A DNA stretch of 40,176 nt, taken from the NCBI GenBank assembly GCA_003649235.1, contig QMRG01000004.1, positions 1-40,176 on the forward strand, given 5' to 3'. This DNA comes from Thermoprotei archaeon (GTDB lineage Archaea; Thermoproteota; Thermoprotei; Thermofilales; B69-G16). Below are positions 5,442 to 6,827 of this stretch, one piece after another (the stretch's first letter is position 1; the number at the start of each line of letters is the position of its first letter). The notes below the pieces were generated by a model. That model made no database searches and was not told the origin of the DNA. It saw only the letters and a list, made by a program, of their open reading frames with translations. The translations under genes were made by a program, and so were the position numbers.

Positions 5442-5507
5442 TTTAGGATATTTCGCTAGTCTTCTCTTCCGAGTATAACAAAGTTGGATATTGATTCATC
5501 AAAATTA

Positions 5508-5567
5508 AGTCGGTCCGGGTCCGTTTCTTCATCTTAACTTCAGTCCTCATAGCCAGCTCGTCATCCA
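5508..5567 (-). ncRNA. candidate C/D box sRNA
   Basis: Minus strand: box C ATGACGA (5564-5558), 14-nt guide, D' CTGA (5543-5540), 7-nt spacer, C' ATGAAGA (5532-5526), 12-nt guide AACGGACCCGGA, D-like CCGA (5513-5510); TATA ~25 nt upstream. D box is non-canonical and no clear terminal stem. Confidence 0.5.
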
Positions 5568-5586
5568 TGATATAAAAGCCAGAGAT

Positions 5587-5595
5587 CTTATATAG
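5587..5595. promoter_or_regulatory. Shared, near-palindromic TATA element between divergent C/D sRNA candidates
   Basis: CTTATATAG (reverse complement CTATATAAG) is centred ~25-27 nt from the predicted 5' end of each candidate RNA. Confidence 0.45.
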
Positions 5596-5616
5596 CTTTA
5601 ACTAAATGAATATTTT

Positions 5617-5674
5617 GGGGATGAAGAAGGAAAATACTGAAAATTGAATGATGTGAAGGAGGTGACCTGACCCG
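5617..5674 (+). ncRNA. candidate C/D box sRNA
   Basis: GGGG-ATGAAGA(C, 5621-5627)-9 nt-CTGA(D', 5637-5640)-7 nt-ATGATGT(C', 5648-5654)-12 nt GAAGGAGGTGAC-CTGA(D, 5667-5670)-CCC; GGG/CCC terminal stem; TATA upstream; no ORF. Confidence 0.68.
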
Positions 5675-5715
5675 GGCGTTAAAAATATAAAACCAGCGGC
5701 TCTATAACATCTTCA

Positions 5716-5811
5716 GGGGCCGTAGCCTAGCAAGGTAGGGCGTCCGGCTCCAGTACATAGCCGGAATGTGGAGAAACCGGAAGGTCGGGGGTTCAAGTCC
5801 CCCCGGCCCCA
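5716..5811 (+). tRNA. tRNA-Trp (CCA) with ~22-nt anticodon-loop intron
   Basis: GGGGCCG/CGGCCCC acceptor, TCCGG/CCGGA anticodon stem, loop CTCCAG[intron]A, T arm GGGGGTTCAAGTCCCCC. Confidence 0.92.
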
Positions 5812-5859: not shown

Positions 5860-6174
5860 ATGTTTATGGAAGCAAGGAAAACTATATTTTTGGCGATTTT
5901 TCTAATCACCTTCTTCGCGGCAATAGTTAGAGGTCAACCGACAGGATCAGATTTCCTAGATACTATAATTTCTGAAGTCGAAACGGTAATCGTTAACGGT
6001 TTAAAACGAATGCTTGTGGCCATAATAAAGATAGCTAGAATAGCTTACCTACTAATGGGGATAGCAGGAGTTTTAATGTGGGCATCCGGCTATGCTGTAG
6101 GTCGAGGCAAGCAATTAATAGTTGGAGCAATAGTAATAGCCGTGCTCTTAGAAGCCCTTTCAGGCTCAATTTAA
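5860..6174 (+). CDS. small secreted/membrane protein with N-terminal signal-like helix and two further hydrophobic helices; possible Ced/Ted-type (VirB2/TrbC-like) pilin
   Basis: MFMEARKTIFLAIFLITFFAAIVRGQPTG... then LVAIIKIARIAYLLMGIAGVLMWASGYAVGRGKQLIVGAIVIAVLLEALSG. Confidence 0.6.
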   Translation: MFMEARKTIFLAIFLITFFAAIVRGQPTGSDFLDTIISEVETVIVNGLKRMLVAIIKIARIAYLLMGIAGVLMWASGYAVGRGKQLIVGAIVIAVLLEALSGSI

Positions 6175-6209
6175 ATTGTTCACTTAGCATTAACTAAAAT
6201 TTATTAAAG

Positions 6210-6328
6210 CGGGCCCGCCGGGATTCGAACCCGGGACCCTCGGGTCTCTTCCCTTAAAGGTTAAAAGCCCGATGCTTTCGGAGGCACCTAACGAGGCTAG
6301 GTCCCCTACCGTGCTGAGCTACGGGCCC
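6210..6328 (-). tRNA. tRNA-Lys (TTT) with two apparent introns (D arm ~29 nt, anticodon loop ~16 nt)
   Basis: Minus strand GGGCCCG TA GCTC AGCACGGTAG[...]AGC A TCGGG CTTTTA[...]A CCCGA ... CCGGGTTCGAATCCCGG CGGGCCC G; 119 nt, reducing to 74 nt after removal of both insertions. Confidence 0.85.
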
Positions 6329-6827
6329 GCTGATATTCTGTTATCTTGAGGCTTTTTATAAAGTTTTTGATATTTTCTTCTGTTATCACTAAGTATGCTG
6401 TTAGCTTTTCTCCTCGAGTTAAATCCTTTACAATAGTTCTATCTATATCTCTTGCTGCTTTATCCGCATTTACAGCGACAGTTCTGTCATCTATGTAATC
6501 GCTTTTTCTAATAACTATGGAATTGCGGTCAGCTAATATAAGTCTTGGATCCGATCGGGCTTCTGCAATATCTATTCTTCCTTTAACTATTATCAGCAAA
6601 TAAACTTTATATCCGCTGGTTCTTAAGAGTTGTTTAGTCTTAGAAGATAAATCACTAGCAGCTTTATCTGCTCGGATCCCTATAATACAAGTGCCCCTAG
6701 GAGTTAGATACCCTTCTTTTGTTATCTCTAGCGTTGTGCTATGAGTAGCCTTTATATTTTCATGACCTTCGGCAACTATTTTTTCATAGTATACTTTCAA
6801 ACTAGACAGTATCCTCTCTATGCCCAT
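6306..6827 (-). CDS. DUF371-like archaeal protein
   Basis: EGHENIKATHSTTLEITKEGYLTPRGTCIIGIRADKAASDL motif; ORF opens at 6848; stop codon falls inside the tRNA-Lys D region. Confidence 0.7.
   Translation of the reverse strand: MGIERILSSLKVYYEKIVAEGHENIKATHSTTLEITKEGYLTPRGTCIIGIRADKAASDLSSKTKQLLRTSGYKVYLLIIVKGRIDIAEARSDPRLILADRNSIVIRKSDYIDDRTVAVNADKAARDIDRTIVKDLTRGEKLTAYLVITEENIKNFIKSLKITEYQRARSSAR

Follow-up and report, generated by a model that had tools for sequence, protein, structure and literature searches.

Two divergent box C/D modules beside a tRNA gene

The window analysed here is a stretch of 40,176 nucleotides from a Thermoprotei archaeon (its genome is G000 below), in which a sequence-only reading had placed two box C/D modules on opposite strands, between positions 5508 and 5674. 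Every box was found where that reading had put it, and both modules carry the C, D', C' and D boxes in the order that defines archaeal box C/D sRNAs. The locus contains the following features, where G002 and G001 are two genomes of the same genus that carry the locus:

5507 to 5568, minus strand: putative box C/D sRNA, predicted 5' end near 5566; score 36.40; kept in G002 and G001
5558 to 5564, minus strand: box C, ATGACGA (box-and-spacing scan, alignment)
5544 to 5557, minus strand: D' guide GCTGGCTATGAGGA; replaced in G001; convincing target not found
5540 to 5543, minus strand: box D', CTGA (alignment)
5526 to 5532, minus strand: box C', ATGAAGA (alignment)
5514 to 5525, minus strand: D guide AACGGACCCGGA; best conserved target the tRNA T-arm CCGGGUUCG, N+5 position G52
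5510 to 5513, minus strand: box D, CCGA; CTGA in G002 and G001
5579 to 5595, plus strand: weaker predicted BRE-TATA of the plus sRNA, CCAGAGATCTTATATAG; matrix scores 3.9 (G000), 4.5 (G002), about 2 (G001)
5586 to 5602, minus strand: predicted BRE-TATA of the minus sRNA, GTTAAAGCTATATAAGA; matrix scores 6.5 (G000), 7.1 (G002), 8.7 (G001)
5587 to 5595, no strand: palindromic, putatively shared TATA element CTTATATAG; identical in G002, TTTTTTATATATG in G001
5617 to 5673, plus strand: putative box C/D sRNA with GGGG/CCC ends; score 36.45; kept in G002 and G001
5621 to 5627, plus strand: box C, ATGAAGA; same in all three congeners
5628 to 5636, plus strand: D' guide AGGAAAATA; 4/9 identity with G002; convincing target not found
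5637 to 5640, plus strand: box D', CTGA; CTGC in G001
5648 to 5654, plus strand: box C', ATGATGT; same in all three congeners
5655 to 5666, plus strand: D guide GAAGGAGGTGAC; complementary to the 16S 3' end, N+5 position the first C of CCUCC
5667 to 5670, plus strand: box D, CTGA; CCGA in G002, CAGA in G001
5678 to 5694, plus strand: separate predicted promoter of the downstream tRNA-Trp gene, GTTAAAAATATAAAACC; score 8.9; conserved in three genomes
5716 to 5811, plus strand: intron-containing tRNA-Trp gene; Rfam 59.1 bits

The plus copy has the terminal pairing ascribed to it, with GGGG at 5617-5620 facing CCC at 5671-5673, as well as its two perfect CTGA boxes (D' at 5637-5640, D at 5667-5670), and the minus copy has the variant D box CCGA at 5513-5510. 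The modules had also been said to overlap no open reading frame, and the interval 5442-5715 indeed holds none of at least 60 amino acids, its longest stop-free run being 52 codons. An inverted duplication of one sRNA was considered as the origin of the pair and rejected, the two modules being similar by eye in little but their boxes.

The neighbouring gene was correctly named as tRNA-Trp: ARAGORN called Trp in G002 and Tyr in the window, and the CTCCA loop and the alignment favour Trp. Just 3' of it, positions 5860-6174 encode a membrane-like protein of 104 amino acids without a Pfam match that is also found in G002. Further downstream, the minus strand of 6205-6330 holds a tRNA gene reported by neither ARAGORN nor Rfam, with a TTT anticodon (probably Lys), intron sequence and the standard T-arm TCCCGGGTTCGAATCCCGG. 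Most tRNA genes of G000 exceed 85 bases, which suggests many tRNA introns.

Scores, Rfam matches and conservation

A box-and-spacing scan scored the plus module at 36.45 and the minus module at 36.40, with 26.2 for the next-best site in the window. Counting both strands, 97.6 Mb of dinucleotide-shuffled sequence gave 0.02 scores of at least 36 per Mb, a somewhat generous figure as the scanner weights were set after the modules had been seen. Applied to 1.16 Mb of the genome (64%), the scan returned 11 candidates scoring at least 34, and the window modules were the only divergent pair among them; the only other pairing closer than 250 bp consisted of two overlapping readings of one site. The same scan found no candidate of at least 34 in ~400 kb of another genome, G021, so it is strict and misses sRNAs, and the pair is therefore not exhaustively the only divergent one.

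Comparison with Rfam covariance models gave a divided answer: no match at the site exceeded the cut-offs, the best reaching 19.9 bits against a gathering cut-off of 38 (sR12), while under permissive settings sub-threshold matches to several archaeal sR C/D families covered both module intervals, mostly over their full length. Rfam archaeal sR families are narrow, and a new member of the sR type would therefore be expected to score below threshold.

Both modules could be aligned in G002 and G001, and the alignment of the three genomes showed that both modules, the TATA element and the tRNA-Trp promoter are conserved. The expectation of conserved boxes with variable guides was borne out for the boxes and for the D' guides and spacers, which drift; the D guides are kept. 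Both D guides are identical to those of G002 at 12/12 positions, and at 10/12 (plus) and 9/12 (minus) to those of G001, while the D' guides are free to change and have been replaced in G001. The 12-nt D guide was confirmed as a C'-D spacing of 12 nt in 6/6 module copies. The 7-nt D'-C' spacing, which had been read as common to the two modules, is present in both window copies and is not kept in the relatives (6 and 4 nt in the plus copy, 7 and 3 nt in the minus copy), so the equality is a coincidence.

Against the consensus boxes RUGAUGA (C) and CUGA (D), variation in the window and across the relatives is confined to position 2 in the D boxes (CTGA, CCGA, CAGA) and to position 5 in the C boxes. 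In the kink-turn, C box position 5 faces D box position 2, and this is a tolerant pair. CCGA is thus no defect and, judged by the alignment, is ordinary drift.

Fibrillarin and L7Ae-family domains are present in the genome; a search with a simple motif, over the portion of the genome that was read, found no Nop5. The identification of both modules as C/D sRNA genes is supported by sequence, conservation and context, and they are almost certainly real genes of a known kind. Two of the conditions named as refuting this reading did not occur: the boxes are kept in close relatives, and at least one guide, that for the 16S 3' end, shows strong complementarity. The archaeal box C/D sRNAs (sR families) of Dennis et al. 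(2015; PMC4644070) have the same C, D', C' and D boxes with guides of 9-14 nt, a 12-nt C'-D spacing, complementarity to rRNA or tRNA at N+5, and fibrillarin and L7Ae-family proteins, all shared with the window pair. Unlike the sR families, the pair has no Rfam match above threshold, stands head-to-head and carries, on the plus side, a guide to the 16S 3' end.

One TATA element between two predicted starts

The TATA element had been placed ~25-27 nt from both predicted 5' ends, and its centre indeed lies 25-26 nt from 5566 and from 5617, centred between two ends 51 bp apart. Promoters were scored with a BRE-TATA matrix derived from the sequences upstream of 28 tRNAs in the same genome, with the local tRNA left out. 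In two of the three genomes (G000 and G002) the element is the top promoter-matrix site on both strands, and the plus-side site lies at a spacing typical of tRNAs; in G001 the best plus-strand site is shifted. The two flanks are unequal, with a conserved BRE GTTAA on the minus side and a weak AGAGAT on the plus side, and the plus-direction scores (3.9, 4.5 and about 2) correspond to per-position p values of 0.005-0.02, and the BRE there is poor.

The idea of a bidirectional TATA gains from the position of the element, its conservation in three genomes and its scores in both orientations, while symmetry alone is no proof and the plus side is weak. The preferred reading is that of a head-to-head C/D sRNA pair driven by one TATA element, to which I assign a probability of about 0.7, and transcription of both RNAs in opposite directions from this element is probable to the same degree.

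An unlikely, though not negligible, alternative is that two real C/D sRNAs have separate promoters or are cut from longer transcripts, with the TATA element serving the minus gene only and the plus RNA arising from another element (e.g. ATATAAAA near 5570-5577) or from read-through followed by trimming. The clearly stronger and conserved BRE-TATA on the minus side would fit this, as would the finding that archaeal C/D sRNAs are mostly produced without a promoter of their own, by trimming of longer transcripts, and that a TATA-like motif lies within 50 nt of only ~20% of them (PMC7994747). However, ATATAAAA is degraded in G001, does not rank with the best sites of the promoter matrix and would start transcription ~17 nt too early, whereas a centred TATA with 51 bp between the predicted ends fits one shared element.

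The arrangement had been called unusual, which holds for C/D sRNAs and not for archaeal promoters (PMC6640164). Bidirectional BRE-TATA-BRE promoters of Pyrococcus furiosus have starts ~50 bp apart and a BRE on both flanks, one of them weaker, with in vitro proof for one promoter (PMC6640164), so the mechanism itself is already known. The window resembles them in its single near-symmetric TATA, in the ~50 bp between predicted divergent starts and in the weaker putative BRE on one side; it differs in that the P. furiosus products are mostly described as non-functional antisense RNA, whereas those of the window look like conserved functional RNAs. A literature search of limited range found no report of a bidirectional TATA for two guide RNAs. 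Adjacent guide genes near a tRNA gene are also a feature of the C/D sRNA clusters and tRNA-sRNA dicistrons of Tripp (2017), as far as these are summarised in PMC7994747. Those clusters are described as polycistronic, whereas the window genes diverge and the tRNA has a predicted promoter of its own.

The plus D guide and the 16S 3' end

The 16S gene is absent from the assembly of the window genome, so the 3' end was taken from five relatives of the order, whose complete 16S genes all end in GGATCACCTCCTT. When rRNA complementarity was checked, the plus D guide GAAGGAGGTGAC paired with this end over 10-11 bp in 5/5 relatives, and its Watson-Crick run of 10 bp was reached by 0/200 shuffled guides. 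The paired region is the anti-Shine-Dalgarno, and by the N+5 rule the nucleotide addressed would be the C that opens CCUCC, equivalent to E. coli C1535.

Pattern searches at the level of the phylum (400 genomes) and of the class (81 genomes) recovered other C/D sRNAs with the same 16S 3'-end target elsewhere in the order and class. One in G012 has the same target in the same register with no open reading frame behind it, and the guides of G007 and G352 fit the 16S site with a shift of 2 nt, to C1533. In G352 (L157), a pair of candidate C/D sRNAs lies in tandem at positions 1500-1617; AGGAGGTGATCT, the guide directed at the 16S 3' end, belongs to the first of them.

Complementarity to the anti-Shine-Dalgarno raises the question of whether the plus guide is the Shine-Dalgarno of an unannotated gene, with C/D boxes there by chance. 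AAGGAGGTGA is a perfect Shine-Dalgarno, and in G015, G021 and G025 a similar motif lies ~20 nt before an open reading frame of ~500 codons. Yet no open reading frame follows the window guide, so that a plain Shine-Dalgarno was rejected, and the complete C/D architecture is kept in three genomes and again in G012 without a frame behind it; I consider this explanation very improbable. G015, G021 and G025 (L066, L067, L068; ~1500-1560) belong to another family; in each of them the beginning of the ~500-codon frame is overlapped by a C/D-like module. Its guide, AGGAGGTGATCT, is also a perfect Shine-Dalgarno, with the start codon inside or beside box C'. These modules could be guide, Shine-Dalgarno, L7Ae-binding leader, or several of these.

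The plus D guide is likely to be aimed at the 16S anti-Shine-Dalgarno. An apparent target in the tail of the ribosomal RNA that binds mRNA is unusual, and no description of a guide to the 16S 3' end was found in the papers covered, outside their site tables.

The minus D guide: tRNA T-arm or 23S rRNA

In its G001 form, the minus D guide pairs with T-arms (CCGGGUUCGA) over 10 Watson-Crick bp, and in its window form over 9 bp with one G-U. The register is unchanged for CGAACCCGGG, the guide of G007, which also fits the T-arm. G007 belongs to a different family; there, the tandem neighbour of the sRNA for the 16S 3' end carries a guide AACGAACCCGGG, again in the same register, so that two tandem sRNAs combine the guide for the 16S 3' end with the guide CGAACCCGG, in surroundings unlike those of the window. 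These tandem sRNAs are located at 958-1099 of L156.

The window assembly contains 23S in part, and here the minus D guide pairs with the genome's own 23S over 9 Watson-Crick bp in N+5 register. This could mean that it targets 23S rRNA (CCCGGGTCCGAC) in place of the tRNA T-arm. Given the G-U in the T-arm pairing and the 9-bp Watson-Crick fit to 23S, both are candidate targets. However, the G001 guide misfits its own 23S at that site, where an A-C mismatch breaks the run, and pairs over 10 bp with T-arms instead; the G007 guide likewise matches the T-arm without a change of register, and the best run of the window guide in the rRNA of relatives was reached by 56/200 shuffled guides. The 23S target is accordingly the less probable one, unlikely though not negligible, while a minus D guide aimed at tRNA T-arms, with G52 as the predicted position, is somewhat favoured. 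In G001 (C130, 63253-66448; L029), the 23S match spans 2900 bases for ~1550 model positions, which suggests 23S introns.

Two further targets were rejected. For Cm56 of tRNA to be the target of the minus guide, the D box would have to be CGGA and the guide 8 nt long, whereas the C'-D spacing stays at 12 nt throughout; Cm56 is also disfavoured by the presence of the Trm56 enzyme in G001 and G002 (Trm56 was not found in G000, an incomplete genome). The D' guide of the minus copy matches the intron of the adjoining tRNA-Trp over 9 bp, and the G002 intron has no matching stretch. Taking all guides together, N+5-paired complementarity is strong for the plus D guide, and for the minus D guide good in G001 and moderate in the window; no good rRNA or tRNA target was found for the D' guides of either module, which look orphan.

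Proposed mechanism and significance

In the mechanism that I infer, from transcription and start sites through RNP assembly to methylation and its effect, TBP would bind the near-symmetric TATA and TFB on either flank would set the direction, with both RNAs starting ~25 bp from the TATA, one on each side. Each RNA would fold into C/D and C'/D' kink-turns, be bound by L7Ae, Nop5 and fibrillarin, and be trimmed to its core. The D guide of the plus RNA would then pair with the 16S 3' end and direct 2'-O-methylation of the C equivalent to E. coli C1535, which opens the core CCUCC of the anti-Shine-Dalgarno, while that of the minus RNA would act on the T-arm CCGGGUUCG common to many tRNAs (predicted G52).

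The two guides are linked in tandem in one family and divergently in another; with both present in the G007 tandem, the same two guides are linked in two families that differ in surroundings and orientation. More tentatively, one symmetric TATA may co-express two guides of translation, one for the anti-Shine-Dalgarno core of 16S and one for the T-arm of many tRNAs. The linkage would then be old in the order, and because of this age ribose methylation of the anti-Shine-Dalgarno may be a trait of the lineage.

If both RNAs do start at one TATA, a bidirectional archaeal promoter would yield two conserved functional RNAs and not noise, and the locus would offer a clean natural test of TFB setting direction. 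If the plus guide works as predicted, it would place a ribose methyl inside the sequence that pairs with mRNA leaders, which would be relevant to the choice of start sites at high temperature and to maturation of the 16S 3' end.
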